Assembly (NCBI RefSeq): GCF_001306035.1
Contig: NZ_LGCM01000003.1
Location: forward strand, 1-64,000
Direction of reading: 5' to 3'
DNA length: 64,000 bases
From: Levilinea saccharolytica
GTDB taxonomy: Bacteria; Chloroflexota; Anaerolineae; Anaerolineales; Anaerolineaceae
The stretch's first letter is position 1. The number at the start of each line of letters is the position of its first letter. Below the pieces are notes generated by a model that was given only the letters and a program-made list of their open reading frames with translations, did not search any database and was not told the DNA's origin. The position numbers and the translations under genes are program-made. This document shows, in pieces, positions 33,160 to 57,718 of this stretch.

Positions 33160-34053
33160 ATGGGTGAAGCTGCGGCGTTATTGACAGCTTGTTGTTGGGT
33201 GGTGTCCAGTCTGGCGTATTCGGCCTCGGTGCAGGTGGTGGGGGCGCCGGTGGTGAACCGCGCACGCCTGGTGATGGCGATAGCTTTCTTAATGGTAACG
33301 CACCGCCTGCTGATGGGCACGTGGTTCCCCGCGGCCGAAGGGGTGCGCTGGCTGTGGCTGGGGCTGTCGGGATTCGCCGGTTTGGTCCTGGGTGATTGGG
33401 CGCTGCTCAGCGCTTACGGATTGGTCGGCCCGCGTATCGCCACGCTGATGATGGCGGTCTCGCCGGTGATCAGTACCTTCCTGGCCTGGGCTTTTTTGGG
33501 CGAGCGCCTGCAGAGCTGGGAGTATCTGGGGGTGGCCCTGGCGCTGGCGGGGGTGGGGTTGGTGGTCTTTGAACGCACCGACGGCCTGGGGCGCAAAGTT
33601 GCGCCGCGGCGATACTTTTTGGGGGTGCTGGCCGGCTTGGGGGCGGCGGCGGGACAGTCATCCGGGTTGATTCTGGCGAAGGCCGGGCTGGTGGGGGGAT
33701 TTTCGCCCCTTTCGGGGGTGCTGATGCGCATGCTGGTGGCGGGGGCGATCCTGTGGCTGGCGACGCTTGTGGGGGGGCGGGTGCGCTCTACGTTGACGAC
33801 CTTAAACCAGAACCGGCCGGTGATCGGGCGGATAGCCCTGGGGAGCCTGATGGGGCCCTTTGTGGGTGTTTGGCTTTCGTTAGTGGCGGTGCAGGCCAGC
33901 CATGTGGGCGTGGCCTCCACCCTGATGGCCATGACGCCGGTGCTGATTCTGCCGGTGGTGCGTTGGGGGCTCAAAGAGCAGGTCAGCCGCCGGGCGGTGT
34001 TGGGAACGCTGGTTTCGATTGTGGGGGTTGCGGTGATTTTTGTGGGGGGATGA
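33160..34053 (+). CDS. EamA/DMT-family transporter
   Basis: A 297-residue membrane protein with about ten helices in two EamA repeats (about 3-135 and 150-296). The second repeat carries the GSLMGPFVGVWLS and GVASTLMAMTPVLILP blocks usual for the family. Substrate unknown. AGAGGG stands just before the ATG. Its last 71 bp overlap the convergent TIGR02206-like gene. Confidence 0.85.
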   Translation: MGEAAALLTACCWVVSSLAYSASVQVVGAPVVNRARLVMAIAFLMVTHRLLMGTWFPAAEGVRWLWLGLSGFAGLVLGDWALLSAYGLVGPRIATLMMAVSPVISTFLAWAFLGERLQSWEYLGVALALAGVGLVVFERTDGLGRKVAPRRYFLGVLAGLGAAAGQSSGLILAKAGLVGGFSPLSGVLMRMLVAGAILWLATLVGGRVRSTLTTLNQNRPVIGRIALGSLMGPFVGVWLSLVAVQASHVGVASTLMAMTPVLILPVVRWGLKEQVSRRAVLGTLVSIVGVAVIFVGG

Positions 34054-34729
34054 GGCGGCCAATCAGCCAGCAGGCCAGGAATGACAGGGTGACGCCGGCT
34101 TCGACAGTCAGGGCGTATGCCCAGCGGTTGGAGACGGCGCTGAGCGGACTGGCACCGGCCGGGGGGGCGAAGAGATACATGTAATTGCTGTGGGTGAGCA
34201 AGTTTACGATCACCACCAGCAGGGCAAACCCCTGGGCTGCGCCCCAGGCCAGGAAGAAATCGCGGGCGGTGGGGCGAAAACCGTCCGCTGCCAGAGCGAC
34301 CGTGACGCATACCAGCAGGCCGTGCGAGAGCATGTAATGAAAGAAAGCAAAGTGGGGAAAGCCGTACAGGCCCAGATCGGGGAAGAGCAAGGCCGCAGCC
34401 GCGCCGGAAATGCACCAGAAATACGCCGCAGATACCCAACCACGGCGCTGGGTGAGCAGAGCCGTAGCCCCCAGGAACATGCTGGCGCTGCACGGATGCA
34501 GCGGCAGCACGGTTTGCAGCGAGGCCGCCCCCACCGCCGCCAACCATGTAACCCAGACGGCTTGCAGGGCGAGCAAGGCAAAGGCCAGGGCGCGGTGAAA
34601 GCCCGGGCTGGGGCGCACCCAGCGGTACACGGCCCAGGCCGCCAGCGTGATGAGGATCAGCGCACCCAGGTGGGCAGGCCCAAAGGCTTCAAAGGGGGCG
34701 GCGAAGTAGTAACGGGCAAAGGGGGACAT
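33983..34729 (-). CDS. TIGR02206/YwaF-like membrane protein
   Basis: A 248-residue protein with about seven hydrophobic helices and the family-like blocks FGPAHLGALILI, LPLHPCSAS, FPHFAFFHYMLSHG and NYMYLFAPPAG. Its function is unknown. The start at 34729 begins a typical N-terminus (MSPFARYYF). A minus-strand TACAAT at 34760-34755 is a likely -10, giving a leader of about 20 nt. The C-terminal 24 codons run antisense through the end of the DMT gene and look low-complexity (Pro/Ser/Lys), as if a stop was lost. Confidence 0.75.
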   Translation of the reverse strand: MSPFARYYFAAPFEAFGPAHLGALILITLAAWAVYRWVRPSPGFHRALAFALLALQAVWVTWLAAVGAASLQTVLPLHPCSASMFLGATALLTQRRGWVSAAYFWCISGAAAALLFPDLGLYGFPHFAFFHYMLSHGLLVCVTVALAADGFRPTARDFFLAWGAAQGFALLVVIVNLLTHSNYMYLFAPPAGASPLSAVSNRWAYALTVEAGVTLSFLACWLIGRLIPPQKSPQPPQSKPAFPTPPGG

Positions 34730-34804
34730 GCGGACGGGGGTTCCTTTCCGCTCTGATTGTACCCTAAGGGGCGGCCGTGTTGGGCGAGGCGCAAGGCGCT
34801 TTGC

Positions 34805-34834
34805 TTGACAAAGGCAACGTGGAAAGGATATACT
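34805..34834 (+). promoter_or_regulatory. Near-consensus promoter of the SPFH-SPFH-TPR operon
   Basis: TTGACA (34805-34810), 18-bp spacer, TATACT (34829-34834), about 50 bp before the first SPFH-like gene. Confidence 0.7.
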
Positions 34835-34883
34835 GACGATAATTCCCGGACTCATCTTCTATTGATTCCCCAAGTGAGGGGGC

Positions 34884-36581
34884 ATGCCGTTCCGAAAATC
34901 CAAAGGACTATCCCGAAATACATGGATCGGCATCACGCTAGGATCGCTGGCGCTGCTGTTTTTGATTGCCTTTTGGCATGAGATTATGCTGGTGTTGGCG
35001 CGCGTGATCACGGTGCTTTTGGCGCTGTTGGCCCAGGAGCTGCCGGAAATCACCCTGGATATGCGCCGGGCGATCAATGTGGTGGTGTTTTTCAACCTGA
35101 TCGGCGGCTTTTTCCTGATGTTCCAGGCCTGGCTGCTGCTGACCTCAGCCCAGGCGCTGCTGCCGGTAGCGGGGTTTCGGGATGTGGCCCGCACTGCCTT
35201 TCACCTGGTGTTGTATATCTTCCGCCGGCATGGGGCGGCCGTTTTCATTAAAGACGGCGAGATCAAAGCCACCTCAGAGGAACTGCGCCGCTCAGGACGC
35301 GGGGTGGTGGTGGTGGATTTTAACAGCGCGGTGGTGCTGGAGGAGACTGTCCCTACCCCCAGCGTGATGCGCGTGTTTGAAAACCTGGCGGACTCCGTCC
35401 TGGTGGCTTTGGGATTGGCGGACCCCTACCAAAATCCGCGCACGATGGGCACCGGGATTGTCTTCACCCGCCCGCGCGAGCGTATTCGGGCGGCGGTGGA
35501 TTTGCGCAGCCAGTTCCGTTTGCGACCCCAGAACCTTTCCTATTCGCGCGACGGCATTGAGCTGCGCGCCAACGTGTGGACCAAATTCACCATCGGCCAG
35601 GAGCCGGAGGTGCTGCAAGTGACCTATCTGGGGGATATGCGCGCCGAAAATTTGCGTGTGGTGGGGTTGCAGGCCGTGGACGAGACCCATGTGCGCGTGG
35701 CTTCGGTGGGGCGCGCGGACGAATTGGATGACGCCGATCGGGCTGAAATTCACCATCAGACCTGGGTGGACCTGCGCCGCGGGCAGATGAGCGCGTATGC
35801 GCCCCTGCCCAGCACCTCACTGCTGCCGGTGTTTAACGCTCAGCGCGTGTTCGCGGCGGTGTTTTCAGAGGCGCGCAACGCCCAGGAAGAAGTCATCCCC
35901 TGGGATGAACTGCCCACCCTGGTGGCCACAGATCTGTACCGGCGGGTGGTGATGGAAACCAACTACGACGAATTCTATGATATCCGCACGCCGGATCATT
36001 TCCCGCTGGACGATATCAAGCGCAAACTGCGCATGCAGATGCGCAACAACGGCATTTTGGCCTACCGCCTGGTGCTGCGCGCGGGCGGCCAACCGCTATT
36101 GAAGGCCGACGAAAAGGGCGAATGGGTGCGGGGCGAGGTGTTCTCGGTGTTCGACCTGCAAACCTCCGCCGTGCGCAGCCTGACCGCGCCCAAGGTGCTG
36201 CGCGACCGCGGGATCAAGGTCATCGCCAGCGGTTTTGGCGATTTGATGCCGGTTTCGGAAGGGGTGTACCAGCAGCGCCTGGATCATCTGTTGGCGCGCT
36301 GGGACCGCGACACAGAATTGATTCACGCACGCAACGAGCTGGATGCGCTGCGCATTCGCGGACGGGCGCGGCGGCAAGCCCAGGAAGAGCTGAACGTGGT
36401 GTTGGCGCGCATCCTGGAAACCCGCGAACACACCCAGGAGATTATGGCCTTGCGGGTGTTCCAGGCCATTGACGGCATGGCCGCGGACCCGAAAACGCGC
36501 CGCTTCCTGCCGGCCGAGACGCTGGATATGATCAACAAGCTGCAAAGCTGGCTGCTGCCCCCTCAGCTGCCCAAGGCTTAA
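34884..36581 (+). CDS. SPFH/band-7-like membrane protein 1
   Basis: A 565-residue protein with two hydrophobic segments near the N-terminus (about 13-47 and 63-87), a prohibitin/SPFH-like region (about 105-330) and a long helical region. The C-terminus (about 480-560) is a coiled coil ending in LPAETLDMINKLQSWLLP, much like the end of other SPFH proteins. Such proteins form oligomeric membrane scaffolds. The region around TSEELRRSGRGVVVVDFNSA is the start of the domain. It heads a three-gene operon; the next gene starts 9 bp after its stop. The call rests on pattern similarity rather than a strict motif. Confidence 0.7.
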   Translation: MPFRKSKGLSRNTWIGITLGSLALLFLIAFWHEIMLVLARVITVLLALLAQELPEITLDMRRAINVVVFFNLIGGFFLMFQAWLLLTSAQALLPVAGFRDVARTAFHLVLYIFRRHGAAVFIKDGEIKATSEELRRSGRGVVVVDFNSAVVLEETVPTPSVMRVFENLADSVLVALGLADPYQNPRTMGTGIVFTRPRERIRAAVDLRSQFRLRPQNLSYSRDGIELRANVWTKFTIGQEPEVLQVTYLGDMRAENLRVVGLQAVDETHVRVASVGRADELDDADRAEIHHQTWVDLRRGQMSAYAPLPSTSLLPVFNAQRVFAAVFSEARNAQEEVIPWDELPTLVATDLYRRVVMETNYDEFYDIRTPDHFPLDDIKRKLRMQMRNNGILAYRLVLRAGGQPLLKADEKGEWVRGEVFSVFDLQTSAVRSLTAPKVLRDRGIKVIASGFGDLMPVSEGVYQQRLDHLLARWDRDTELIHARNELDALRIRGRARRQAQEELNVVLARILETREHTQEIMALRVFQAIDGMAADPKTRRFLPAETLDMINKLQSWLLPPQLPKA

Positions 36582-36590
36582 GGACGAGCG

Positions 36591-37913
36591 ATGCAAAACC
36601 GTATGCCGCGATTTAACCGCAGACGCGAACGGCCCCAGGTGGACACCGAGGCCTGGCAGCAGCTTTTGGCGCTGGTGCGTATGGGCCTGGTGGTGCTCAT
36701 GCTGAGCGGTTTCGCGTTTTTGGGCGGGGCGCTGTTTGAAGATGTGGATGTCAACGGCATTGCTGAAAGTCTGCACGGCGCCAACATCCTGCTGCGTTTC
36801 TTCCCTCTGTGGATGTTCCGCCTGGGGGTGTGGATTTTTCATCCGCTGCACGTGCGTTATGCCATCGCACCGCTGGCGGCTTTGGTGGCGGTGATGGTGG
36901 CGGGGGCGCGCTTTGTGCAGGATATTTACAATCTGCCGAAATTCTCCCACGGGCTGAAATATATCCTGTCCTCGATGTTCGGCCTGGATTACCCGGAACT
37001 GACCATTGACGGCGGTCAGATGATTCGCGGTAAGAAAGAGGTGAACCTGATTGACGCGGTGGGCGGGCCGGGCTACGTGCTGATTCAGCCGGGAAACGCG
37101 GTCTTGTTCCGCGAGCTGCGCCGCCCGTCCAACGTTAGCATCACCCGCTCTTACTTTGTGGCCCCCTTCGAAACCGTGGGGCAGATTGCCAACTTGGATG
37201 ACCAGCACGACTCGAACAACGACGTCAAGACCATGACGCGCGACGGGATCCTGGTGATTCTGCACGATGTGCAGTTCCGCTACCGCATTCTGCCGGAAGA
37301 ATCCGGCGGGCGCGTCATCCGGCGCTCCTTAGACCGACCTTACCCCTATTCCGAAGACGCCATGCGCAATATGGCCTATAACCTCTCGGTGACCAAAGAC
37401 GGCTTAGAGAGCTGGCATGCGGCCGTGCGCAAATCGGTGACGGGAGTGATCAGCGATTACATTAACAGTCATTATCTGGACGAATTAACCGCACCGATGA
37501 ACGAGGACCGCTCCCCGCGAGATGTGATCCGCGCGGATTTCGACCTGCCTGACCGCAAGGCGCGCCTGAAGAACCTGGGGGCGGAACTGCTGTGGATTGA
37601 TATCGGCCATATCGAGATCGTTCAAGAAGCCGTGGATGAGCGCCGTGTGGGTTATTGGGCGGCGGAATGGTTGGGGGACGCCAACGCGAAACGAGCCTTC
37701 AGCGATGCGCGCCGCCAGGCTTACACCGAATTGGGACGGGCTGAGGCCCAGGCCGAGGTGATCATCAGCATTGCCCACGCGTTGGAGAATGTGCAGATGA
37801 ACAACGATCCCCGTGAAAACCTGCGCACGATCTTCTTACAGCGGGTGGCCAGTACGCTGGATGCGCTGCGCGACCAAAACTTGAGAAATCAGGAGGGTGA
37901 GCCCCATGATTGA
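36591..37913 (+). CDS. SPFH/band-7-like membrane protein 2
   Basis: A 440-residue protein with two N-terminal hydrophobic stretches (about 27-50 and 82-106) and an SPFH-like domain from about 140 to 340. The core reads GGPGYVLIQPGNAVLFRELR, then MTRDGILVILHDVQFRYRI, which is the classic band-7 alternation of strands. The C-terminus (about 370-435) is helical with Ala/Glu/Arg-rich repeats. It differs clearly in sequence from the first SPFH-like protein, so the two may build a hetero-oligomer. It overlaps the TPR gene by 8 bp. Confidence 0.78.
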   Translation: MQNRMPRFNRRRERPQVDTEAWQQLLALVRMGLVVLMLSGFAFLGGALFEDVDVNGIAESLHGANILLRFFPLWMFRLGVWIFHPLHVRYAIAPLAALVAVMVAGARFVQDIYNLPKFSHGLKYILSSMFGLDYPELTIDGGQMIRGKKEVNLIDAVGGPGYVLIQPGNAVLFRELRRPSNVSITRSYFVAPFETVGQIANLDDQHDSNNDVKTMTRDGILVILHDVQFRYRILPEESGGRVIRRSLDRPYPYSEDAMRNMAYNLSVTKDGLESWHAAVRKSVTGVISDYINSHYLDELTAPMNEDRSPRDVIRADFDLPDRKARLKNLGAELLWIDIGHIEIVQEAVDERRVGYWAAEWLGDANAKRAFSDARRQAYTELGRAEAQAEVIISIAHALENVQMNNDPRENLRTIFLQRVASTLDALRDQNLRNQEGEPHD

Positions 37914-38871
37914 CCTGGAGGCCGTCCTGCAGTGGATGAATGAATTTGAGCCGATGCGCCTTTCGCAGGCGGTGCGTACGAAGGTGGAAGCGATGAACGC
38001 GCCGGAAGTGACCAAGAGCCGCATGGCGGTCCTGATGAACGACGCTCTGAACACCGCACGCGCCAGCGCAGACCGCCTGGAATACGCCGAAGCGCTGGTA
38101 TACACCGCGGTGAAGCGCTATCAACATAATTATCGGTTGACCGCCAGCCAGAATTTGCAGGAAGCACTGACCATTTTCCCGCAAAACTCCTACAAATTTG
38201 GAGTAACGGCTTACATGCTGGGTTGGGTGCTGTGGGATATGGAGGAGCGCGAAAACGCCCAATCGTATTGGCAGCAGGCGCGGGGCATTTTTGACACGAA
38301 ACGCGCCTTCCTTCAGCAGCGGCTGGATGGAATGCAGGCCGATATCGGCACGGCTGGCGTGGACGACATGAGCGAGGTGTATAACGACTGGCTGCACAAG
38401 TGGGGCGAAAAATACCTGCGGGAACAATCCGCTCAGTTGGTGGAAATCCTGGAGCGGAAACGCCGCCGCCGGGACGTGACCGCCTACGACACGATTGACC
38501 GTTTGTTGGACAGCGTGTTCCGAACCAAGGAATATCAAGCCGAAGCCGAGGCCTGTGTGGTCAGCGGGTACACCTGCTTCGTGCTGGAAAATTATCCCCT
38601 GGCCGAAGCCTATTTCACGCGCGCCGTGGCCACTTATCTTCCGGGGACTCACCCGCAGGCGGTGGCGTTGTGGATGTTGGGGATGGTGCAGTGGCGCATC
38701 GCGGGGGAATTTGGCCGGGCGGCACAAAGCTGGGAACGGGCCATCACCACGTTTGAGGATTTGGCGGTGGTGGAAAAGAACCAGAATCGTCACAACCGCT
38801 TCGAATGGTATTCTGAAAAACTGGCGCTGATGCGCTCGGCTTTAACCCTAAAGCTTCAGACAGCTTTATAG
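37906..38871 (+). CDS. TPR-repeat protein
   Basis: A 321-residue all-helical soluble protein. Helical pairs resembling TPRs occur at about 57-125 (YAEALVYTAVKRY...) and 205-300, the clearest being ACVVSGYTCFVLENYPLAEAYF with the next ALWMLGMVQWRIAGEFGRAAQSW. It probably binds partner proteins, perhaps the SPFH scaffold or the AAA+ protein encoded opposite. AGGAGGG (37891-37897) stands eight bases before the ATG at 37906. Its last 128 bp overlap the convergent AAA+ gene on the other strand. Confidence 0.75.
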   Translation: MIDLEAVLQWMNEFEPMRLSQAVRTKVEAMNAPEVTKSRMAVLMNDALNTARASADRLEYAEALVYTAVKRYQHNYRLTASQNLQEALTIFPQNSYKFGVTAYMLGWVLWDMEERENAQSYWQQARGIFDTKRAFLQQRLDGMQADIGTAGVDDMSEVYNDWLHKWGEKYLREQSAQLVEILERKRRRRDVTAYDTIDRLLDSVFRTKEYQAEAEACVVSGYTCFVLENYPLAEAYFTRAVATYLPGTHPQAVALWMLGMVQWRIAGEFGRAAQSWERAITTFEDLAVVEKNQNRHNRFEWYSEKLALMRSALTLKLQTAL

Positions 38872-41533
38872 GCGCAGCTTTCCAATCGGGCGCAGGCTTG
38901 CCGACCCTATCCTCGGCCTTGTACTGCTGAGTGGATTCTCTGACACACTCAGCATGTTTCGCCACGTGCGCTGGCGAGTTTCCATACACGCTGCTTGATT
39001 CCCGTTCGGCGTATGAGGTATGGGCTGGCGCTGACCAACCCGGCACGTCCTCCAGAGTGATTTTCCCCAGGTCATGCCGCGCAGACCGGGCGTGACCGGT
39101 ATATATGGCTTCAGCATGACGGTTTTTGACCTCTTCCCACAGGTTTCGGGCAGCGCGGGCGTTGCCAAAACTGCGCTTCTGCGCGGCGGCACGTTGGTTA
39201 AGGAGGGCCGTCATGTGTGTCAGGGCTTCCTCAGTGATTTGATATTGGTCGCGATGGGCCAACTGAGATAGGATTTCGCGCAGCTCGGCGGGGGTGTAAT
39301 CTGGAAACAGGATCGGATCCCCAAAACGTGAAGCCAGCCCGGGATTCAATTGCAAGAAACCCTGCATTTCTTCTGGATACCCGGCGGCGATGACCACCAG
39401 GCGGTGCCCCTCATCCTCCAGGGCCTTCACCAAGGTGTCCATCGCTTCCCGACCAAAATCCTGGCTGCCGCCGCGGGACAAGGTGTAGGCTTCATCAATA
39501 AAGAGCACACCACCGCGCGCCTCTTTGATCTTCTGCGCGGCTTTCAGCGCGGTCTGGCCCACATAACCAGCCACCAGATCGGCGCGGGAGACTTCCACCA
39601 GATGCCCCTGGCTCAGCAAGCCCAGGGCGCGAAAGAGGCGGCCCACTAAGCGGGCGACAGTGGTTTTGCCCGTGCCGGGGTTGCCGGTGAAAACAAAATG
39701 GCTTTTCGGATAATTGGGGATGTAGGCGGCATCCAGCGCCTTGCGTTGGTTTTCCATCTGAATGCGGTACGCCAGGGCGCGCAGGCTGCGTTTAACCGCC
39801 TCCAGACCCGTAAGGGAATCAAGCTCCCGAAAGACATCTTCCACGCAGTCTACCTGCGGCTGTAAAAAGCGCTGGTAATGTTTCGGCAGGTCCTGGGGCA
39901 GCAATACGGCTGGGGTGTGCGGCTCGGCGGCCGCGCGCACGGCATAAGCTTTTTCCAGGGCGTCGGCCAGGTTGCGCATCTCACCGGCATTGCCGAAATG
40001 TTCATCTTTGTCGCGCAGCAGGCCGGTGATGCACTCTTCCAGTGCGGATTCGAGGGTGGGGTGCAGGGCCAGCCCGCGGTTGTGGAGCAGCTGGCGCAGA
40101 ATCTCGGCCAGTTCATCACGGTCTAAATCGGTGAAAACCAAACGATTTTCTGCGGGAAAACGGCGGCTCAGCCCAGGGTTGGCATCCAGAAATCTTTGCA
40201 TTTTCTGGGTGTAACCCGCGGCGATCACCACCAACCGTTCGCGGTCGTTTTCCATGCGGGTGAGCAAGGTCTCCAGGGCTTCGGCGCCATACCCGCCGCG
40301 GTCAGCTTCCGTCAGGCCGTAGGCTTCGTCGATGAACAGCACCCCGTCGAGAGCGGAATCGATGATCTGATGGGTCTTGGCAGCCGTGCCGCCCATGTAT
40401 TGCGCCACCATCTGGCCGGGAGTGGTTTCTACCAGATGACCGCGGCGCAGCACGCCTGCGTCGTGCAGAATTTCACCCACCAGACGGGCAAACGTGGTTT
40501 TGCCGGTGCCGGGGCTGCCGGAGAAGACCATGTGCAGCAGCGGGGCTTCCTCCTGCGGAGGGCGACCGGGCGCCCATTGAAGGCGCACCCAGGCGCGAAA
40601 GTCCAGCAGGCGCTGCTTGAGTTCCGCTCGGCCGACGACAGCTTTCAGCTTGTCATCGAGGGAAAGATCCGGCCGACGCACCGAGGAAAACCAACCCTGG
40701 GCTCTTGCCGCGGCGAAGGACCATTCGGGTAATGAAGCCAGCCGCTCATGCCAGGTGCGCAGACTGCCCCCTTCGGCGGAAATCCAACGGAGCAGACGGC
40801 TGCGCTCCTCATTCGGCAGCGCCTGTCCGCGGGTGGTCTCCAAATGGTACAGCATGGCGTCCCACTCTTCGGGGGCAGGCTCTGGCAGGCAGTACACCGC
40901 GTTGGCAGCGGCCGCCATGCCCGCCGATTGGATTAACTCGCGCAGTTCGGGCACGGGCAGGTTGGGGCCGATCTCTCGCAGGGCTTCCTGATTCCGCGCC
41001 GAAAACAGGCAGAAACATTGGTTGCTGCTGCTGGACGGCAGGTTGAGCCAGGAGCCTACCATCCCGGCCAGTGTGCGCTGGCTGTCATTAAAGGCCATCC
41101 AGGATTCGGCCTGTTGGATCACCACTGCGGTGCGGATGGGACGGGGGTCGGTCATCAAGGCGTGCAGCAGGTGCACTGCATGGACATCACTCATGGGTTG
41201 GTAATTGGCGCGCACATTCATCAACCCACCGGTGAGCAGCTGCCGGTCTCGCAAGGGGCCGGCGCGGGGCTGAGGGGTGGATGCGGTTGGACTCATTTCT
41301 TCGGGACTGGCTAACTGCTCCGACTCAGCATCCAGATAAAACACCGGCCGGTGGGGGGCAACAAAGGCGATGCGCTGATAACCGGCTTCCCGTAGCGCGG
41401 TGTGAAAAGCGGTGAGGAAATTGCTCTCGCGGCCGTCGACTGAGAAGAAGGAATCACTCAGGCCCTCACCGATGATGATTTCAATCGGGCAGGGCAGGGG
41501 GTGAGAAAAGAGGGGGGCAAAGCGGGGGATCAC
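38744..41533 (-). CDS. Double CbxX/CfqX-type AAA+ ATPase with N-terminal ATPase-like domain
   Basis: A 929-residue protein with two intact AAA+ modules of the CbxX/SpoVK type. Module 1: Walker A GSPGTGKTT (339-347), Walker B LFIDEA (399-404). Module 2: Walker A GNPGTGKTT (617-625), Walker B LFIDEA (677-682). Each is followed by an RRF/SRF arginine-finger-like motif. Residues 1-200 resemble an ATPase fold (RTAVVIQQAESW looks like a Walker B strand) but have no P-loop. CbxX ATPases remodel protein complexes. The tail after about 835 is Ser/Pro-rich, and its last 42 codons are antisense to the TPR gene. The start overlaps the coiled-coil gene by 4 bp. Confidence 0.88.
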   Translation of the reverse strand: MIPRFAPLFSHPLPCPIEIIIGEGLSDSFFSVDGRESNFLTAFHTALREAGYQRIAFVAPHRPVFYLDAESEQLASPEEMSPTASTPQPRAGPLRDRQLLTGGLMNVRANYQPMSDVHAVHLLHALMTDPRPIRTAVVIQQAESWMAFNDSQRTLAGMVGSWLNLPSSSSNQCFCLFSARNQEALREIGPNLPVPELRELIQSAGMAAAANAVYCLPEPAPEEWDAMLYHLETTRGQALPNEERSRLLRWISAEGGSLRTWHERLASLPEWSFAAARAQGWFSSVRRPDLSLDDKLKAVVGRAELKQRLLDFRAWVRLQWAPGRPPQEEAPLLHMVFSGSPGTGKTTFARLVGEILHDAGVLRRGHLVETTPGQMVAQYMGGTAAKTHQIIDSALDGVLFIDEAYGLTEADRGGYGAEALETLLTRMENDRERLVVIAAGYTQKMQRFLDANPGLSRRFPAENRLVFTDLDRDELAEILRQLLHNRGLALHPTLESALEECITGLLRDKDEHFGNAGEMRNLADALEKAYAVRAAAEPHTPAVLLPQDLPKHYQRFLQPQVDCVEDVFRELDSLTGLEAVKRSLRALAYRIQMENQRKALDAAYIPNYPKSHFVFTGNPGTGKTTVARLVGRLFRALGLLSQGHLVEVSRADLVAGYVGQTALKAAQKIKEARGGVLFIDEAYTLSRGGSQDFGREAMDTLVKALEDEGHRLVVIAAGYPEEMQGFLQLNPGLASRFGDPILFPDYTPAELREILSQLAHRDQYQITEEALTHMTALLNQRAAAQKRSFGNARAARNLWEEVKNRHAEAIYTGHARSARHDLGKITLEDVPGWSAPAHTSYAERESSSVYGNSPAHVAKHAECVRESTQQYKAEDRVGKPAPDWKAAPIKLSEALGLKPSASAPVFQNTIRSGCDDSGSFPPPPNPQTW

Positions 41534-42906
41534 GGGTGTGCCAGGGGTCGGTTAGCGGGGAGCGGTTTGGATAGGCGCGTGCGTCCCAGCCCATTGGAGG
41601 CCAGTCGCACCTCGCGCGGCTGTTCCACGATCAATCCACTGTCGGTCAGGCTGCTTTGAATACCCAGGAAACGCTGACGGAAATCGTGTTCGGTGCTCTG
41701 GCTGCGGTCGAGGGAGATAATGTGCAGGTCATTTTCCAGGCTGTTGGCCGCGCGCGGGTGCACCTGGATGACCACTTCCTCACCAGCAAAATTCTTGAGC
41801 GAGGCCGAATAGGCGCGGCGCATGTCCTCAGCATCGTAATGGCCTTCGTAGAACACGAAACGCTCAGCCTCCAGCGACCGAACCACCAGATCGGCGATGT
41901 TGATGCGCAGTTGAGATGAAAGCACCGCGATGCGGGCCTGATGCACCAGGTCGGTGAACTCTTCTCGCATAGCGGGCAAATCGTGCGTGAGAATTTGCTG
42001 AAGTGTGCGCGTGGGGTTGTGTTCCATCCCGCTTTCCAGTTGGCTAACCAGGGCCTGCGAACGTTGTACCAGTTCAGCATATCCACCCTGGGTCCACACA
42101 TTGATATCGACTTGATCTTCGATTTCCTGACCCTCCAGATCCACGGCCGGCACGCGGGCCGAACGCTGCAGCACGGCAAGGTGGGTGTTGACCTGGAAGA
42201 CCGCCTGCTGATATAGGTGATTCCACCGCGCCAACCGCCGTTCCAATTCGATGCGGAAATCCGAAAGCTGGAAGAAGACCCTCTGAAAAGCGGAGAGGGC
42301 GGCCTGGAAGGCGGCGGCGTTGTAATTGCCCTCCGCGGCAGCCAATTCTTCCAGAATGCGCTGCACCTTGACGCGCCCCAAGAGCGGTGGGGGGTAGTGA
42401 TTCTGGATAAAATCTAAAAGGATCAAAGCCGATTCAGACCACTGCTCAGCCAGCGCCTGGTGCTGCCGGGCGCTGTGCTGGTGTTCTTCCATGTTGCGGT
42501 GCAGGTGAAGCAGCTCTACCTGGCGGGCGCGGTGTTCTTCCTGAATATCGCTGAAGATCTGATGAGCCCAGCTTTCGATTTGCTCTGCAGTTTGTTGTGA
42601 CCAGTTTTGTTCAAAGGAAGATAAGTTCTGAGACCAGGCTTGATAGAGGCTTTCATAGGCCTGGGCAGAGGCATTTTCCAGATCCTGCAAATTCTCGGAA
42701 AGAACCGCCACGGTCTCTTCATAGGCATGCTGGCGAGAGAGGGCTTCCCGGAGCTGATCTTGTGAGGACTGAACTGTCTGGCGGCGCATGGCCTCATGCA
42801 GGTCGTCGAGCTGGGCCGCCAGATCGTACACGCGCACACTGGCGGTGCGCAAGCGGTCATATTCTTCCTGGCTGATGCTGACCAGGGCTTTCTTATGCCC
42901 ACTCAT
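41530..42906 (-). CDS. Large coiled-coil protein of unknown function
   Basis: A 458-residue soluble protein without a recognised domain. Residues about 8-245 are strongly helical with Gln/Glu/Leu heptads; a mixed alpha/beta region follows (about 255-450), including RFVFYEGHYDAEDMRRAYSASL and the strand GEEVVIQVHPRAANSLENDLHIISL. It has 4-bp ATGA overlaps with both the radical SAM gene upstream and the AAA+ gene downstream, so all three products should be made together. It may be the substrate or an adaptor of the AAA+ ATPase. No signal peptide or membrane helix is seen. Confidence 0.8.
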   Translation of the reverse strand: MSGHKKALVSISQEEYDRLRTASVRVYDLAAQLDDLHEAMRRQTVQSSQDQLREALSRQHAYEETVAVLSENLQDLENASAQAYESLYQAWSQNLSSFEQNWSQQTAEQIESWAHQIFSDIQEEHRARQVELLHLHRNMEEHQHSARQHQALAEQWSESALILLDFIQNHYPPPLLGRVKVQRILEELAAAEGNYNAAAFQAALSAFQRVFFQLSDFRIELERRLARWNHLYQQAVFQVNTHLAVLQRSARVPAVDLEGQEIEDQVDINVWTQGGYAELVQRSQALVSQLESGMEHNPTRTLQQILTHDLPAMREEFTDLVHQARIAVLSSQLRINIADLVVRSLEAERFVFYEGHYDAEDMRRAYSASLKNFAGEEVVIQVHPRAANSLENDLHIISLDRSQSTEHDFRQRFLGIQSSLTDSGLIVEQPREVRLASNGLGRTRLSKPLPANRPLAHP

Positions 42907-43592
42907 GAGGTACTCCTTTGAACATCAAGCTGCCGCGCGGCCAAAGCACGGTGAAAGGCGCTGAGCACGGCTGGGCGGGGGATGCCGACCATCACGGCGG
43001 AATCCTCGTGGATGTGAATTTCCACCTTGCGTTCAGCCCGTTCCAGCGAACCAGCCGGGATGCGCTCCGTCAGGTAGATGAAATTCTGATTCCTGGAGCC
43101 GCGCAATCCCTGAGTTGTCTGGGCCAGCTCGCGCTGAAAAGGGCCGTCCACCAAGACATCCACCTGCGTCAACAGGTCAGCTACGCCCAGAGCGGGAGGG
43201 CTGCTGCGCAGTTGCTCGTAGGTGTAGCCGCTGAAGCAAATGACGCTGATTTCACGTTCTCGCCGGACAAGGCGCAGAAATTCGGCTGCCGCCTTGCTTT
43301 GCAGGGTTGGCTCACCGCCAGAGAGGGTCAGGGCGTGGACGTCGGGATCACGCAGGAACCACTCGGCCAGATCCTGGGGGGTGGTCTGCAAGGCCGGTTT
43401 GAAGGCCTGCCATTCCGGCGCGATGCAGCCAGGGCAGGCCAGGGGACAGCCCTGAAACCACACCACAGAGCGCACATCTCCCGGTCCCAGGGCGGAGGTG
43501 CGTCGAACCACGTGGGCCAGGTTGAGAATGCCCGCGGGCGGCAAGTGCGATGGCGAATAATGGTTCTGACCGTTCATGCAAATGGCCGTCAT
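42903..43592 (-). CDS. Radical SAM protein, activating-enzyme (NrdG/PflA)-like
   Basis: A 229-residue radical SAM protein. The 4Fe-4S motif is Cys49-x3-Cys53-x2-Cys56 in FQGCPLACPGCIAPEW, and the SAM-binding LTLSGGEPTLQ motif lies near residue 95. The start of the core (LGPGDVRSVVWFQGCP) is close to anaerobic ribonucleotide reductase activases, yet no nrdD or pfl gene is near. It may instead generate a radical on, or chemically modify, one of its operon partners. The ATG at 43592 is used; an ATG five codons later is possible and neither has a clear RBS. Confidence 0.83.
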   Translation of the reverse strand: MTAICMNGQNHYSPSHLPPAGILNLAHVVRRTSALGPGDVRSVVWFQGCPLACPGCIAPEWQAFKPALQTTPQDLAEWFLRDPDVHALTLSGGEPTLQSKAAAEFLRLVRREREISVICFSGYTYEQLRSSPPALGVADLLTQVDVLVDGPFQRELAQTTQGLRGSRNQNFIYLTERIPAGSLERAERKVEIHIHEDSAVMVGIPRPAVLSAFHRALAARQLDVQRSTS

Positions 43593-52381: not shown

Positions 52382-54307
52382 GTGGTCCGGTGTTGGAACG
52401 CGGCACAGGACGGCGGACGGCTGGCGAGCCTGACCAGCACCAATCTGGACGGCGCGGCGCTGCAAGGATTAGGATACGATTACGATAACCGCGGAAACAT
52501 CCTGGGGATTACCGACAGCCTCAGCGGTGAGATCTCGGAATTCACCTATGATGCCCTGGAGCGCCTGTTGAGTATGACGGTGACGGTCAACGGCCAGACA
52601 AGCCACAGCGAAACCTTCTCCTACGCCGACCCGCACGGGCGGATGGTGAGCAAGAGCCTGAATGGGGTTTCGAAGGCGTTTACCTATGATGCCAACCACC
52701 CGCATGCCGCTGCCAGCCTGGGCGAAAACAGCTACACCTATGATCTCAACGGCAGCCAGGTGGGGCGGGTCATTGGCAGCACAGCTTACACGCTGACCTA
52801 CGACGGAGAAAACCGGATGATCCGGGTGGAACCGGTGGGGGGCATGGCAGCCAACAGCGCCCCGGCGCGGCGAAAGGTGATGGCCCTGCAATTTGCACCG
52901 ACGCAGGGATGGGATGTTGAGACGCTTATCCCGTATACCCCAATGCCAACTTCGACGAGGACGCCCACACGTACTGTTGCTGTCACCACAGAAATACTAG
53001 AATTACCTCCAACGAAGACGCCCACACCTACGGCCACAGCCACGCCAGAGCCGTCGCCCACCGGGACGGCTGCGCCCACGCAGGAGCCGACGCAAACGCC
53101 CGACCTGCCGCCGACCGAAACGCCCACCCCCACCCCACAACCGCCGCCGCTGGAATCGGCGCAGTACTTCTATGACGGGGATGGAACCCTGGTGAAAAGC
53201 ATCGTGAACGGCGAAGTGACCTATTATGTCAGCCGCCAATTCCACCTGCGGGTGAGCGGTGAGGAGACTCGCATCCAGAAGTATTACCCCTTTGGCGGGC
53301 AGCCTATCGCCGTGCGAACGCAAGCCAACGGGACCGACACGCTGAACTGGCTGCTGACGGATCACCTGGGCAGCGCGCAGGTGACGGCGGCGGAGGGGGG
53401 CGCGGCCAGCGGGGTGCAGCGTTATACGGCCTTTGGGGAGGTGCGTTCCCGCGGCGGGGAGATGCCCACGGCGTACCAATACACCGGGCAGCTCAGCCAG
53501 ATGGAGCAGGTGGGGTTGTATCACTACGGGGCGCGCTGGTTTGACCCGGCCGGGGCGCATTTCACCCAGGCGGATACGCTAATCCCTGGTGTGGGCAACC
53601 CGCTGTCCTGGGATCGGTATGCGTATGTCAACGATAACCCCATTAATTACACAGATCCAACCGGCCATATGCAAGTGTGCGCAGATGGAGATGAGGGGGG
53701 AGGTTGCGGAACCGGATCAACGACGGAACAAATTTGGCTGACTTTTGCTGACCCTGATGATGGAAGACACAAGGGTGTTTATGATGGGTTATTTTCCGAA
53801 TATTATGCGAAACTACATCAAGCCAGGGTAGTAACATCGAGAGGGGATCCTAATGCAGATATATACTGGGCAGATGCAGCAACCGCAAAAGAGGTTGCAC
53901 TAAACTTTTTCCCGCAAAAAGAAATCAATCCTATAATGTTTATTTCGCCAGAAGCGATATACCGGTTTTCGCAGTTTTTGGTTGGGGCGGCGAAAGATTT
54001 ATTACTGAATGGTGGTGGCAATATTGTAAGTGCTTCTTTTTTGGCCCCCTCAGTTAAAGCCGCTTGGTCAAAAAGTACATTTAATACCGTTGAAGATTCA
54101 ATCACTTATCATTATCAGAAACATGGAGAACCCTGGAAGACTGCTGAGGAATATACCGAGGCCGCCCAGAACTTTTATACTCTTAACATAGATATGGCAA
54201 AGTCTCATAAGCTCAACTCCGGAGAGATAGGAGTGAAGATTACAACGGATCAATTTTTTGGAATCTATACAGCAGATGGCAGAATTATCTCATTTGGACC
54301 TAAGTAA
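52382..54307 (+). CDS. RHS-repeat polymorphic toxin, 5'-truncated, with C-terminal nuclease-like toxin domain
   Basis: A 641-codon frame that begins in the middle of RHS/YD repeats (GYDYDNRGNI, FTYDALERLLS); a stop codon precedes it and no RBS is seen, so the original N-terminus is lost. Order: YD repeats (about 30-155), Thr/Pro linker (about 185-260), RHS core (about 262-425) ending in the usual GNPLSWDRYAYVNDNPINYTDPTG, then a variable tip. The tip is visibly AT-richer than the core. Its end, HYQKHGEPWKTAEEYTEAA with a later FFGIYTADGRIISFGP, resembles the BECR-fold RNase group of toxins; that is inference. The immunity gene follows 14 bp later. Confidence 0.75.
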   Translation: MVRCWNAAQDGGRLASLTSTNLDGAALQGLGYDYDNRGNILGITDSLSGEISEFTYDALERLLSMTVTVNGQTSHSETFSYADPHGRMVSKSLNGVSKAFTYDANHPHAAASLGENSYTYDLNGSQVGRVIGSTAYTLTYDGENRMIRVEPVGGMAANSAPARRKVMALQFAPTQGWDVETLIPYTPMPTSTRTPTRTVAVTTEILELPPTKTPTPTATATPEPSPTGTAAPTQEPTQTPDLPPTETPTPTPQPPPLESAQYFYDGDGTLVKSIVNGEVTYYVSRQFHLRVSGEETRIQKYYPFGGQPIAVRTQANGTDTLNWLLTDHLGSAQVTAAEGGAASGVQRYTAFGEVRSRGGEMPTAYQYTGQLSQMEQVGLYHYGARWFDPAGAHFTQADTLIPGVGNPLSWDRYAYVNDNPINYTDPTGHMQVCADGDEGGGCGTGSTTEQIWLTFADPDDGRHKGVYDGLFSEYYAKLHQARVVTSRGDPNADIYWADAATAKEVALNFFPQKEINPIMFISPEAIYRFSQFLVGAAKDLLLNGGGNIVSASFLAPSVKAAWSKSTFNTVEDSITYHYQKHGEPWKTAEEYTEAAQNFYTLNIDMAKSHKLNSGEIGVKITTDQFFGIYTADGRIISFGPK

Positions 54308-54321
54308 AGAGGAGCAATGAT

Positions 54322-54618
54322 ATGGAGCAAATAAAGGAATCTTATGAAGATATGTATAACACCCCTATTCCTAAAGGGATCCAATCATTGATTGATGATC
54401 TAATCGTAGGATTGAATGATTACGACGGATATGTTATGGGTTTGGCCTCATCATATCTTAAGGGGGAGTGGGAGAATGAGGGGATCGATGTCGATAAAGA
54501 GATCGACAATATTATCGAGAAATTGATAATAAAACTTAATGAATACCGGACGTATAAACAAAAACTTGATGATCTCGTTCTCATTCTCAAGAACGCGAAA
54601 AAAACACCAAAGGAATGA
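54322..54618 (+). CDS. Putative immunity protein for the RHS tip toxin
   Basis: A 98-residue acidic, helical protein without recognised domain. AAAGAGGAGC stands about seven bases before the ATG at 54322. Its position right after the toxin tip, small size, AT-rich coding sequence and low pI-type composition fit a cognate immunity protein. No membrane helix is seen, so it would neutralise a cytosolic toxin. The family is unknown to me. Confidence 0.6.
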   Translation: MEQIKESYEDMYNTPIPKGIQSLIDDLIVGLNDYDGYVMGLASSYLKGEWENEGIDVDKEIDNIIEKLIIKLNEYRTYKQKLDDLVLILKNAKKTPKE

Positions 54619-54752
54619 AGTGAAAGGCGGGTAAATGCGGTGGAAGATCGCCTCTGCTCGCCTTTGTCTTGACGCAATTGTTAGGATCTCCTAACCTGGA
54701 TCACAAGCCAAGACGTTTACCGCCTCAGCACCATGAGAGGGATCTCGCGTAA

Positions 54753-55100
54753 GTGGGTTGCCGGAGATGCGGCTTAAAACGAGTTTACCGGGTGGGGCGC
54801 GCTAAGCCTGACAGAATGCACCACCCCTCATTCGCAGCAGATGCGTCGGGGACCGCACCCAAACGTGCAAAAAAAGAAATTTACTTCGTGATATCTGGCG
54901 GTAGTAAACCTGTCCGGTTCGGCGATGTGGGCATTTTTGATCAAAATGGCGACCTAGTTGCCGTTTACCAGGTTGGGGTTGGCACCCTGAGTGGACTTCC
55001 TATCGCCAGAGAGAGGCAGGCTATTACAGATATTTTTGAATATGGATCCTTAAAAAATGATCCTTTTGATGGACCTATAATATTCATACCATATAAGTAG
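54753..55100 (+). CDS. Orphan polymorphic-toxin C-terminal domain
   Basis: A 115-codon frame with no RHS core and no clear RBS; it starts right after a stop codon. The C-terminal part (YQVGVGTLSGLPIARERQAI then TDIF) matches a pattern I have seen at the tips of RHS and related toxins, where a VG-x-G-PxARE block precedes a helix. It is probably a displaced tip that could be swapped back onto an RHS core. An immunity-like gene follows 13 bp later. It may not be expressed on its own. Confidence 0.5.
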   Translation: MGCRRCGLKRVYRVGRAKPDRMHHPSFAADASGTAPKRAKKEIYFVISGGSKPVRFGDVGIFDQNGDLVAVYQVGVGTLSGLPIARERQAITDIFEYGSLKNDPFDGPIIFIPYK

Positions 55101-55113
55101 AAAGAAGGTGAGC

Positions 55114-55656
55114 ATGGGTAGACAGGTCAGGTTTTATATGCTCCTTGATGATGAACAGGAGTTTCTGGATTTTGTTTGCCAAAAACCTGGGGTAAAACTT
55201 CTGCGGGTTGTTTCCGATATACCGGAACTTGTCATTGGGAAAAAAGTTTTATTAGAGTCTCAAAATATGCGACAGGTGTATGTTTGGGATTCAGCTTTTA
55301 GTATTCCCCAAAATAGTATTGAAAAGCTATTCTACACGAACTACGACGAAAATCTTGGGCAATATGTTGACACAGAAAGAGCTTTTTTCACAATTAACCG
55401 TTCTTCATCCGCACCTTTTATTGAGTATTCACGCTCTTTTATTCGTGATGATGGAAAATTAACAGAAGGACGAATCTGGGCTGAAATGTACCGTTCTGAA
55501 GGTGATAAATTGGTTCGTAAAGAACCCGAGTTCATCTCCTGGTATGGAGAGGTCGCTCGCTGGTTTAGACAGAACCTACAACATGATAGGGAGTTGAATG
55601 CCTACGTGTCTAGAAGAGCGATGGAATGGAGAAAAAATGGTGGGGAATTTCATTAG
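55114..55656 (+). CDS. Putative immunity protein for the orphan tip
   Basis: A 180-residue soluble protein starting MGRQVRFYMLLDDEQEFLDFV, a start common in small immunity-like proteins encoded beside polymorphic toxins. AAGAAGG stands five bases before the ATG at 55114; a GTG two codons earlier is less likely. The coding region is AT-rich, like the toxin it follows. Later blocks (RAFFTINRSSSAPFIEYSRS and ISWYGEVARWFRQNL) look well-formed, so the gene seems intact. Confidence 0.6.
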   Translation: MGRQVRFYMLLDDEQEFLDFVCQKPGVKLLRVVSDIPELVIGKKVLLESQNMRQVYVWDSAFSIPQNSIEKLFYTNYDENLGQYVDTERAFFTINRSSSAPFIEYSRSFIRDDGKLTEGRIWAEMYRSEGDKLVRKEPEFISWYGEVARWFRQNLQHDRELNAYVSRRAMEWRKNGGEFH

Positions 55657-55794
55657 CCACTAGGTTGAAAATTTATCTTATAAAAGCGAAATTATACCGT
55701 TGTTCGGAATATCAACCAGGCGATCACAGGGCGCGCCCGTACAGGGGTGATGATGTACAATGAGGCATGGGCGGCATGAGTCCGATGGGAGATT

Positions 55795-55961
55795 GCAGCG
55801 CGCAGGTGACGGCGGCGGAGGGGGCGCGGCCAGCGGGGTGCAGCGCTACAGCACCTTTGGGGAGGTGCGTTCCCGCGGCGGGGAGATGCCCACGGCGTAC
55901 CAGTACACCGGGCAGCTCAGCCAGATGGAGCAGGTGGGGCTGTATCACTACGGGGCGAGGT
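55795..55961 (+). pseudogene. RHS core fragment, copy 2 (frameshifted)
   Basis: Nearly identical to part of the RHS core of the first gene (53375-53540), from GCAGCGCGCAGGTGACGG to the YHYGA codons. One G is missing from the GAGGGGGG run, so the two parts lie in different frames, and the match breaks off at GGGGCGAGGTG. It is followed by a stop codon after two codons. Confidence 0.85.
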
Positions 55962-56004
55962 GTGAATAGACCTAATGCCATCCTTTGCTGGATCATTAGA
56001 ATGT

Positions 56005-56039
56005 TGTACAAATATGCATTTTAATTGCATAATTGTACA
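56005..56039. promoter_or_regulatory. Promoter-overlapping inverted repeat of the AAA_14 gene
   Basis: TGTACAAATATGCA and TGCATAATTGTACA form 14-bp arms with one mismatch around a seven-base centre. The right arm covers the -35 box TTGCAT (56025-56030) that pairs with TATAAT (56047-56052) over a 16-bp spacer. It looks like an autoregulatory operator, or the end of a small mobile repeat. Confidence 0.45.
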
Positions 56040-56104
56040 GAAATGATATAATCATCATGTCGTTTATCACGCCGCCTGATCCATTGCTTATCGGAGCTTG
56101 TTCA

Positions 56105-57259
56105 ATGATTGAAAGGAAAATGGCGTCCAAAATAACTTCCCTGGCGCAGAAGTTCCAGGTCATCACGCTCACCGGCCCACGCCAGTCTGGAAAGACCACG
56201 CTGGTCCGTGCCGTTTTTCCGAACTTGCCCTACGTTTCTCTGGAGGAGCCTGATATCCGCCAAATTGCGCTGTCGGACCCGCGCGGATTTCTATCCAATT
56301 ACCCTTCTGGGGCTATTATGGATGAAATTCAAAATACACCGGAACTGTTTTCTTACCTACAGCGAATCGTAGATGAAAACCGCCAGATTCAATTTATTCT
56401 GACGGGATCGTCCAATTTTTTGTTAATGGAAAAAATAAGCCAGACCCTGGCAGGCCGTACCGCCGTTTTGCATTTACTTCCGTTCTCATTTGAAGAGCTG
56501 GAACCCCTGAATGATCCATATGAGAGCATGATTTTTAAAGGCCAATATCCGCGGATTTACGACCGCGATATTTCCCCTACAGAGTTCTATCCATCTTACA
56601 TCCAAACCTATGTGGATCGAGATGTTCGTTTGATCAAAAATGTCGGCGACTCGAACGCCTTTATTCAATTCACGCAGCTGTGTGCAGGACGCATTGGGCA
56701 GCCGCTGAACTATGCTAGTTTAGCGGCTGACGCCGGCGTCAGTCCAAATACAGCCAAGTCATGGATCTCGATTCTGGAAAGTTCTTACATTCTGTATCGC
56801 TTGCAGCCCTATCATCGGAATTTCAATAAAAGACTGGTGAAATCACCCAAGCTGTATTTTTATGATACCGGGGTCGCTTGCGCACTACTTGGGATCCGAG
56901 AATCGGAACACATCAACTTTCACTATCTTAAAGGTTCACTGTTTGAAAACTTGATTCTTAATGAATTCATCAAGCGCAGTTTCAACCGCGGCGAGAACAG
57001 CCTGCCGTATTATTGGCAAGATAATCACGGCAAAGAAATTGATTGCTTGATGGTGAACGGCGAAAGGGTCACGGCGGTTGAGATTAAATCGGGGAAAACG
57101 ATGTCAACCAGTTATTTTGACCATCTTCATTATTGGGAATCATTGGCGGCTTTAAGTGAATATCGAGGATATGTTGTCTATGGGGGTGATCAAACGATGC
57201 AAACCAGCGCAGGCATGTTATTAAGCTGGCGGGATCTCGATCGTATTCCACATGCATAA
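56105..57259 (+). CDS. AAA_14/DUF4143 ATP-binding protein
   Basis: A 384-residue ATPase: P-loop GPRQSGKTT (24-32), Walker B IMDEIQ (71-76), sensor-like FILTGSSNFLLM, a winged-helix part (about 200-255) and a C-terminal DUF4143 domain whose EIDCLMVNGERVTAVEIKSG is a PD-(D/E)XK-type core. Such proteins are widespread, of unknown role, and often found in mobile or variable regions. The ATG at 56105 has GGAG eight bases upstream. An ATG at 56057, five bases after the TATAAT, would give a leaderless longer form. It sits between two broken RHS core fragments. Confidence 0.88.
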   Translation: MIERKMASKITSLAQKFQVITLTGPRQSGKTTLVRAVFPNLPYVSLEEPDIRQIALSDPRGFLSNYPSGAIMDEIQNTPELFSYLQRIVDENRQIQFILTGSSNFLLMEKISQTLAGRTAVLHLLPFSFEELEPLNDPYESMIFKGQYPRIYDRDISPTEFYPSYIQTYVDRDVRLIKNVGDSNAFIQFTQLCAGRIGQPLNYASLAADAGVSPNTAKSWISILESSYILYRLQPYHRNFNKRLVKSPKLYFYDTGVACALLGIRESEHINFHYLKGSLFENLILNEFIKRSFNRGENSLPYYWQDNHGKEIDCLMVNGERVTAVEIKSGKTMSTSYFDHLHYWESLAALSEYRGYVVYGGDQTMQTSAGMLLSWRDLDRIPHA

Positions 57260-57307
57260 TCGATATTTCGAACTTTCTCCCCAACCATCGGCCTCACCTC
57301 GCCGTGT

Positions 57308-57578: not shown

Positions 57579-57696
57579 GGCTATTTAGGGATGACCTACA
57601 TTTTTCCGACTGCGAGGATGGGTTACCCCAGGCCTCTCAAATGACTCCAGATGAAACTGTTAAGCCCGATCCATACGATCGAGCTGAAGAGATTCG

Positions 57697-57718
57697 ATCG
57701 CTCAATCAGCGATTTTTA
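57697..57718 (+). terminator. Intrinsic terminator at the right border of the RHS region
   Basis: ATCGCT/AGCGAT stem (57697-57702 with 57708-57713) followed by a TTTTT run. It overlaps the 3' end of the minus-strand hydrolase. The stem is short. Confidence 0.4.

Follow-up and report, generated by a model that had tools for sequence, protein, structure and literature searches.

The stretch analysed here (the window, 64,000 nucleotides from position 1 of contig NZ_LGCM01000003.1 of Levilinea saccharolytica) contains at 34884-43592 a cluster of six genes in two convergent operons, which encode two SPFH-type proteins (SPFH1 and SPFH2) and a tetratricopeptide repeat (TPR) protein on the plus strand, and an AAA+ ATPase, a coiled-coil protein (CC) and a radical S-adenosylmethionine (SAM) protein on the minus strand. 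Judged by sequence comparison, the minus-strand operon is a portable core, and the six-gene unit is modular, not one indivisible system. All six open reading frames (ORFs) that an earlier reading of the letters alone (the sequence-only reading) had placed here were recovered in the ORF calls of the window, and their ratios of non-synonymous to synonymous divergence (dN/dS) against the near relative at locus L009 were 0.03-0.14, so that all six behave as genes under purifying selection.

SPFH1 (34884-36581, 565 amino acids) and SPFH2 (36591-37913, 440 amino acids) are separated by 9 bp, and SPFH2 overlaps by 8 bp the TPR gene (37906-38871; 321 amino acids from ATG 37906, 324 from GTG 37897), for which the ATG start was chosen from the BLAST alignment to the relatives in L025 and L047, beginning at residue 4. 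On the minus strand, the radical SAM gene (42903-43592, 229 amino acids) overlaps the CC gene (41530-42906, 458 amino acids) by 4 bp, and the CC gene overlaps the AAA+ gene (38744-41533, 929 amino acids) by 4 bp. The overlaps of 4-8 bp formerly reported for both operons were thus found at every junction except SPFH1/SPFH2, and the convergent ends of the two operons share 128 bp (38744-38871). Across this overlap 119 of 128 bases were identical between the window and L009; identity was 87% on the TPR side immediately before it, and on the AAA side immediately after it the sequences aligned poorly when no gaps were allowed. As an informal comparison, this identity pattern fits coding in both frames. 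The corresponding overlap has the same length (128 bp) in L009, is longer in L010 (149 bp) and shrinks to 4 bp in L047; in L025 the two frames are separated by 18 bp.

The ATPase contains two active modules of the SpoVK/CbbX type, each with Walker A and Walker B motifs, at 39854-40648 (Walker A at residue 339) and, together with AAA_lid_6, at 39035-39841 (Walker A at residue 617), with approximate boundaries in both cases. It scored above the cut-off of the SpoVK model TIGR02881 (464 bits, summed across two stretches, against 422.95) and below that of the CbbX model TIGR02880 (387.4 bits against 459.25). Residues 1-285 (40679-41533) gave no Pfam domain among the best 25 of 45 families, and are by their predicted structure a third, degenerate AAA fold: the AlphaFold model of residues 1-300 (mean per-residue confidence, pLDDT, 84.5) had 21 Foldseek matches at E <= 0.001, to AAA+-type chains (best E 4.7e-4), and the best VIA Z score was 11.9, to the FIGL-1 AAA domain (root-mean-square deviation 3.7 across 198 residues). 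Because the GxPGxGK form of Walker A was not found in residues 1-285, this module has probably lost its activity and serves for recognition or as a spacer. The description as a CbxX-type ATPase with two active modules therefore held for the active pair and missed the third fold. No peptidase was present among the same best 25 of 45 Pfam families, and the C-terminal tail was without a match.

The CC protein was predicted to consist of long helices and a small C-terminal alpha/beta domain (residues ~345-425; mean pLDDT 81.6). No Pfam model matched it over cut-off and no Foldseek match was obtained at E <= 0.001, the Chk1 KA1 domain giving a TM of 0.52 on the target at E 0.08; a missing Foldseek match proves no absence of solved relatives. 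The family is divergent (19-30% identity to the window protein, 77% for L009), and it has a near-invariant N-terminal MSGxK motif (42892-42906, MSGHK in the window protein), in which M was found in 45, S in 46, G in 44 and K in 46 among 48 aligned members; the exceptions in L021 and L037 are probably start-site errors of the gene caller. A second class of loci carries a radical SAM gene, a helical protein mostly starting with MSG and a Cdc48-type AAA protein (two AAA members tested), in some cases with genes resembling, by eye, a kinase and a vWA protein. Profile comparison of CC with this helical protein (hhalign probability 97.2, E 3e-11, 257 columns) indicates that the two are homologous; in the second class MS and a lysine at position 6 were kept in 7/7 proteins and MSG in 6/7.

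The radical SAM protein matched PF13353 (Fer4_12; 108 bits, cut-off 22) and PF04055 (34.4 bits, cut-off 29.5), both above cut-off, and carries the CX3CX2C iron-sulphur motif at 43425-43448 (C49, C53 and C56). The motif was present in 80/80 radical-SAM loci when re-read from the match frames, partly by selection, because the scan patterns contain part of the cysteine motif. The protein had been called NrdG-like, which remains apt as a resemblance, its score with the NrdG model being 81.6 bits against a cut-off of 126.1. A single-sequence phmmer search against solved structures gave no match at E <= 0.01.

SPFH2 of the window matched Band_7 at E 0.018, under cut-off, and SPFH1 gave no Band_7 match in the Pfam search. 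In the family alignments, Band_7 was matched at E <= 0.1 by 9 of 12 SPFH1 members (best 1.2e-6; the window protein not among them) and by 12 of 20 SPFH2 members (best 3e-11; the window protein among them), and the SPFH profiles matched stomatin (E 5e-4), with a further, weak match to HflC (E 0.02). Both proteins are, through their relatives, assigned to the Band_7 family, so that their designation as SPFH-like, weak for the window proteins alone, stands at the family level. Hydropathy analysis placed N-terminal hydrophobic segments at residues ~12-54 and ~62-87 of SPFH1 and hydrophobic segments at ~23-52 and ~85-110 of SPFH2, and none at the same cut in the other four cluster proteins. The TPR assignment was borne out by PF07719 (28.1 bits, cut-off 27), and a TPR relative in L156 had a sub-threshold match to SNAP.

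Recurrence was determined by a scan of species genomes with the radical-SAM alignment, which used radical-SAM peptide patterns and gave 212 relatives; the best 80 were kept, and phylum shares among these 80 are not prevalences. Loci on the same contig were counted once (L004/L012, L006/L025, G650/L034 and G670/L022; 82 fetched or repeated loci), and taxon labels were assigned from record titles. Genes of the loci were called with a simple caller that truncated some radical-SAM genes at the start and did not detect TPR in three loci (the window, L009 and L010); TPR genes were therefore taken from longest-ORF calls and radical-SAM motifs from match frames. Both the CC and the AAA gene were present in 48/80 loci, always adjacent and on one strand (48/48), and in 42 of these 48 the radical SAM gene lay directly beside CC by reading of the gene orders. 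The full convergent arrangement was found in five species (the window, L009, L010, L025 and L047), with flanking genes common to the window and L009 only, apart from one UbiB gene at the cluster's other end in L047. The possibility that the two operons never meet outside the window is thus disposed of. The six-gene loci formed no well-supported clade in the core tree (support for the place of L010, 56/79).

An apparent further joining was seen in L022, where an SPFH pair unlike that of the window, together with one more gene, follows the core on the same strand. The SPFH proteins of L022 grouped with other Anaerolineales SPFH genes at 100/100, and its core grouped at 99.9/100 with L034 and L043, which are without such an SPFH pair; the differing groupings imply two or more encounters of core and SPFH pair, or else a replacement of the pair. 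Under either history, a functional link between core and SPFH pair is likely from these trees. The record of L043 is titled Chloroflexus sp., and its core and flanks match the Anaerolineales locus L034; the title may be a mislabel. The proposal that the six genes are a unit was accordingly upheld in that they recur together in five species with divergent genomes, and modified in that the core also has other partners.

Most core loci outside SPFH clusters carried GTPase-, GAP1- or Hsp70-type genes, which resemble those known from NTP-dependent conflict systems. In actinobacteria, a trio of families (F3, a GTPase-like family and F5) accompanied the core in 31 of 34 loci, and a gene of family F6, which includes the Hsp70 of L012, in 12 of 34. 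The actinobacterial GTPase member tested was weakly DO-GTPase-like (21.4 bits, cut-off 27). Among 17 aligned F5 proteins four matched GAP1-M at E <= 1 and one matched GAP1-N2, the best E-values being those of a Chitinophaga protein already scored as GAP1-N2. GAP1-N2 was over cut-off in the Chloroploca locus L012 (47 bits, cut-off 24), which also has Hsp70 and a weak DO-GTPase2, in the Chitinophaga locus L058 (27.2 bits) and in the core locus L060, where it was placed by coordinates.

The core is also carried by the mobilizable plasmid pCAL6303.02 of Calothrix sp. PCC 6303 (L160), with the annotated order Hsp70, TPR protein (1,316 amino acids), 4Fe-4S protein of the radical-SAM type, CC match and AAA ATPase; a DO-GTPase2 (56.9 bits, cut-off 27) lies further along on the other strand. 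This was the only record found when plasmid records were searched with CC, and a search of phage records with SPFH2 gave no match. Trypsin was fused to the AAA protein in L012 and L177, and one tested member of a family present in six actinobacterial loci was a trypsin-TPR protein. Locus L177 comes from a genome of the window's own family and has the core with the fused trypsin and a GTPase-like gene, so that the partner module differs within that family. In L058, the AAA protein is fused to TPR and to a region that resembles NB-ARC/STAND and scores slightly under cut-off, and a TIR gene adjoins it. L058 (12046-18570) and L060 (12023-18544) encode proteins of 2,173-2,174 amino acids with three Walker A motifs within the AAA part; proteins of this type are perhaps, to judge by their domains, one-protein immune receptors built on the same AAA core.

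Two archaeal loci (L066, 9992-17015, Methanoregula; L082, 9998-16991, Methanolinea) hold side by side a radical SAM gene, a small Ycf35-like protein, a Ycf46-like AAA gene, another long protein and an Hsp70-like gene, all named by eye. Neither CC nor its relative showed, in the C-terminal domain, a signal of kinship with the Ycf35-like protein of Methanoregula (hhalign probabilities 2.0 and 2.9), and such kinship was rejected.

Synonymous divergence (dS) was compared in one genome pair, the window and L009, at least one of which is a metagenome bin. The distal flanks (UbiB, the genes at 49287 and 50030, TM198, LRR and asparaginase) had dS values of 0.14-0.29 (mean ~0.21), and the core genes had values four to six times this mean (radical SAM 0.91, CC 1.35, AAA 1.29), those of the TPR, SPFH2 and SPFH1 genes being 0.69, 0.61 and 0.39, respectively. 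Raised core dS with low dN/dS looks, in this single pair and with other causes possible, as if recombination had brought in a diverged allele. Such import is known from contested loci.

These results are best read as describing an immune-like ATPase system of the conflict type in a variant anchored at the membrane, a reading to which we give a probability of about one half. Within it the earlier suggestion of a machine that is bound to the membrane, driven by ATP and reliant on radical chemistry is retained, and a defensive role is inferred from the partners of the core and its distribution. The engine would be formed by the radical SAM protein, CC and the triple-AAA+ protein. By the most likely mechanism, the radical SAM enzyme would install a modification on CC, for which the MSGxK N-terminus is the best candidate site: no other short stretch of the neighbouring protein is as conserved, and the other locus class has it in a slightly altered form. 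The AAA+ protein probably remodels CC; it may form a ring in which CC is recognised by the dead N-terminal module and pulled on or taken apart by the two active ones. SPFH1 and SPFH2 probably assemble into a membrane ring or cage of the kind described for HflK/C and further SPFH proteins, and the TPR protein may serve as an adaptor that bridges the membrane module and the engine; NSF with its TPR adaptor SNAP offers a loose parallel, hinted at by the sub-threshold SNAP match in L156. Membrane damage or an invading element would be the trigger that switches the engine. In a more far-reaching and decidedly tentative form, the radical SAM protein, the MSGxK-bearing CC and the triple-AAA+ protein would be an unnamed portable signalling engine common to several classes of conflict systems, in which modification of the CC N-terminus sets the trigger of the AAA+ ring, and which in Anaerolineae would have become coupled to a membrane cage of SPFH proteins, giving an immune machine at the membrane that is gated by radical chemistry.

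A number of observations weigh against this interpretation. The six-gene form was seen in Anaerolineae only, and the core loci L017, L034 and L043 had no adjacent SPFH pair. The L017 genome carries a window-type SPFH1-SPFH2-TPR set elsewhere, the L034 and L043 genomes have one weak SPFH2 match each (E ~1e-8), by eye in an ordinary HflK/HflC-like pair, and the L177 genome gave no match to the SPFH2 profile, as did eight non-Anaerolineae genomes searched for SPFH2-type matches (seven with the core; L061 with AAA and radical SAM). SPFH pairs are common without CC in Anaerolineales: at least two SPFH genes were present in 16/16 further Anaerolineae regions fetched for SPFH2 matches from genomes in which CC was not found, some with a third gene and many, by eye, beside psuG and PHP-domain genes. 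A close SPFH1-SPFH2-TPR set without CC was found in G080, and close SPFH2 relatives without a CC match in G623 and G655 (E 4e-62 and 2e-53). In L117 (6561-15508), from a genome without CC, a gene resembling, by eye, a KAP-type P-loop NTPase lies between an SPFH pair and a close SPFH1-SPFH2-TPR set.

Co-occurrence, which had been proposed as a check across the families, gave a divided answer at thresholds (1e-100, 1e-20 and 1e-40) that were picked after the results were known. CC was found in 3/301 phylum genomes by single-sequence query and in 5/396 class genomes by profile; SPFH2 at E <= 1e-20 was found in 43/396 class genomes and in 2/5 CC genomes, so that at this loose threshold its co-occurrence with CC was not significant (hypergeometric p = 0.09), which again counts against a fixed six-gene system. 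Only two of 396 genomes had SPFH2 at E < 1e-100, both with the core (p ~1e-4, relatedness uncorrected), and a threshold of 1e-40 in the 301 phylum genomes gave p ~2e-4.

To the same side belong several points on the core itself. The radical SAM gene was not next to CC in six core loci (genes between them in L019, L027, L048, L055 and L064; radical SAM on the opposite strand in L050), and MSGxK had true-looking variants in L067 (MSRGK) and L044 (MSCRK); the role assigned to this motif is a conjecture. Hsp70 gave no match at E <= 0.01 with the one F6 protein tested from actinobacteria, and identity of actinobacterial F5 with GAP1 was not established (hhalign against the L012 GAP1, probability 0.2). 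Synonymous divergence was also raised in the three flanking genes nearest to the cluster (LytR 0.55; the next two past SPFH1, 0.41 and 0.45), and the low dN/dS gives no sign of positive selection. No effector domain was recognisable in the six window proteins (for the AAA protein, among the best 25 of 45 Pfam families), and PADLOC returned generic AAA matches for the ATPase (ten models, best IetA at 46 bits) and a weak viperin match.

Other explanations of the cluster were weighed against the same evidence. It is possible, with less weight than the conflict-type reading, that the cluster is an envelope quality control or stress machine and not an immune one, in which an HflK/HflC-like SPFH pair and a TPR adaptor feed membrane complexes to a cytosolic AAA+ unfoldase under regulation by CC, the GTPase, Hsp70 and trypsin forms being stress systems as well. 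SPFH pairs with AAA+ partners are established for HflK/C-FtsH in the parts of that literature consulted, Band-7 proteins and AAA+ ATPases recur in envelope-stress operons according to passages of PMC11237479, and the SPFH pairs of the 16 further Anaerolineae regions, with their psuG and PHP-domain neighbours, would suit such a function; the patchy distribution of the core in the phylum and class genomes, its plasmid copy, the trypsin, STAND-like and TIR partners and the raised divergence at the locus suit it poorly. That two unrelated operons came to lie tail to tail by chance and persisted through common descent appears unlikely. Each operon occurs without the other, the looser co-occurrence was not significant, and the lack of a well-supported six-gene clade leaves room for one ancestral joining followed by losses; such a history is opposed by the five species with flanks that are unlike outside the window/L009 pair and one UbiB gene, by the second, codirectional joining to a different SPFH lineage in L022, and by the restriction of SPFH2 relatives at E < 1e-100 to CC genomes (2/2 among 396 genomes, at a post hoc threshold).

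Least probable, and rejected, is a metabolic role, in which the genes would be an NrdG activase of the anaerobic ribonucleotide reductase and a CbbX activase of RuBisCO. Its basis is the resemblance in sequence to NrdG and CbbX, for both of which the scores given above fall below the curated cut-offs (no search was made for RuBisCO). No NrdD match was found in the genome (97.65% complete; the control was positive in 6/14 genomes), another gene of the genome scored higher with the NrdG model (106.8 bits, also under cut-off), and the one glycyl-radical match of the genome has a partial-NrdG gene ~2.8 kb away. The family also occurs in many Streptomyces and Actinomadura, which are aerobes; this, with the missing NrdD in the window genome, makes glycyl-radical activation the less likely function.

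Elsewhere in the window, the gene next to the cluster (33986-34855) matched TMEM164 (PF14808, 134 bits), a family that bears the name of an animal protein, and two 2-kb steps at 54001-58000 have G+C contents of 0.45 and 0.49, down from 0.58 immediately before.

If the conflict-type reading is correct, one three-gene engine would be common to loci hitherto listed under their GTPase, Hsp70 or vWA components, and the radical SAM gene of such loci would have a suggested target, the short conserved N-terminus of its neighbour, that can be tested directly. SPFH scaffolds, whose bacterial roles are mostly unclear, would be tied to an ATP-driven and possibly defensive machine. The third, degenerate AAA module, the near-invariant MSGxK of CC and the raised core dS in one genome pair are new details of the system.

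The statement in the sequence-only reading that no system of this composition had been described was too strong, since passages of Kaur et al. 2020 (PMC7159879) report related conflict systems of two kinds, those with DO-GTPase/GAP1 and the FtsH-ternary ones; part of the FtsH-ternary systems include a radical SAM protein, considered there to modify a peptide effector. Literature searches on this system and on HflK/C, within the running text of largely open-access papers, gave no naming of the six-gene set. Like SpoVK (TIGR02881), the cluster has active AAA modules scoring above the cut-off of that model; it differs in having two active modules and a third degenerate one, and no sporulation context was seen. 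With HflK/HflC-FtsH it shares paired SPFH membrane proteins and an AAA+ partner, but no peptidase was found in its ATPase, it has the TPR, CC and radical SAM proteins in addition, and its SPFH domains may face the cytosol, to judge from the N-terminal hydrophobic segments only. Likeness to the GTPase-centric systems (DO-GTPase/GAP1-N2, with the Hsp70 theme) lies in the core beside GAP1-N2 in L012 and L058 and in the Calothrix plasmid core with its DO-GTPase2 over cut-off and Hsp70; the GAP1-N2 section of PMC7159879 names, in its running text, neither a radical SAM protein nor a SpoVK-type ATPase. Unlike those systems, the window cluster has an SPFH-SPFH-TPR module and no GTPase found in the cluster: no DO-GTPase was among the matches of the six cluster proteins or of nine flanking window proteins (E <= 0.001), the only proteins of the genome covered, no GAP1 model was among the Pfam matches of the six (best 25 of 45 for the AAA protein), and GAP1-N2 (PF20013), the one GAP1 type searched genome-wide, gave no match in the window's genome. 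The second-class loci compared here presumably correspond to the FtsH ternary (MoxR-vWA) systems of Kaur et al. The window cluster differs from these in that its active modules are of the SpoVK/CbbX and not the FtsH/Cdc48 type, and no vWA domain was among the matches of its six proteins or the nine flanking ones. It is like the second-class loci in its row of radical SAM protein, MSG-starting helical protein and AAA protein, and like the FtsH ternary systems in an inactive N-terminal AAA copy, reported for them in the same passages and indicated in the window ATPase by the predicted fold and the missing Walker A.

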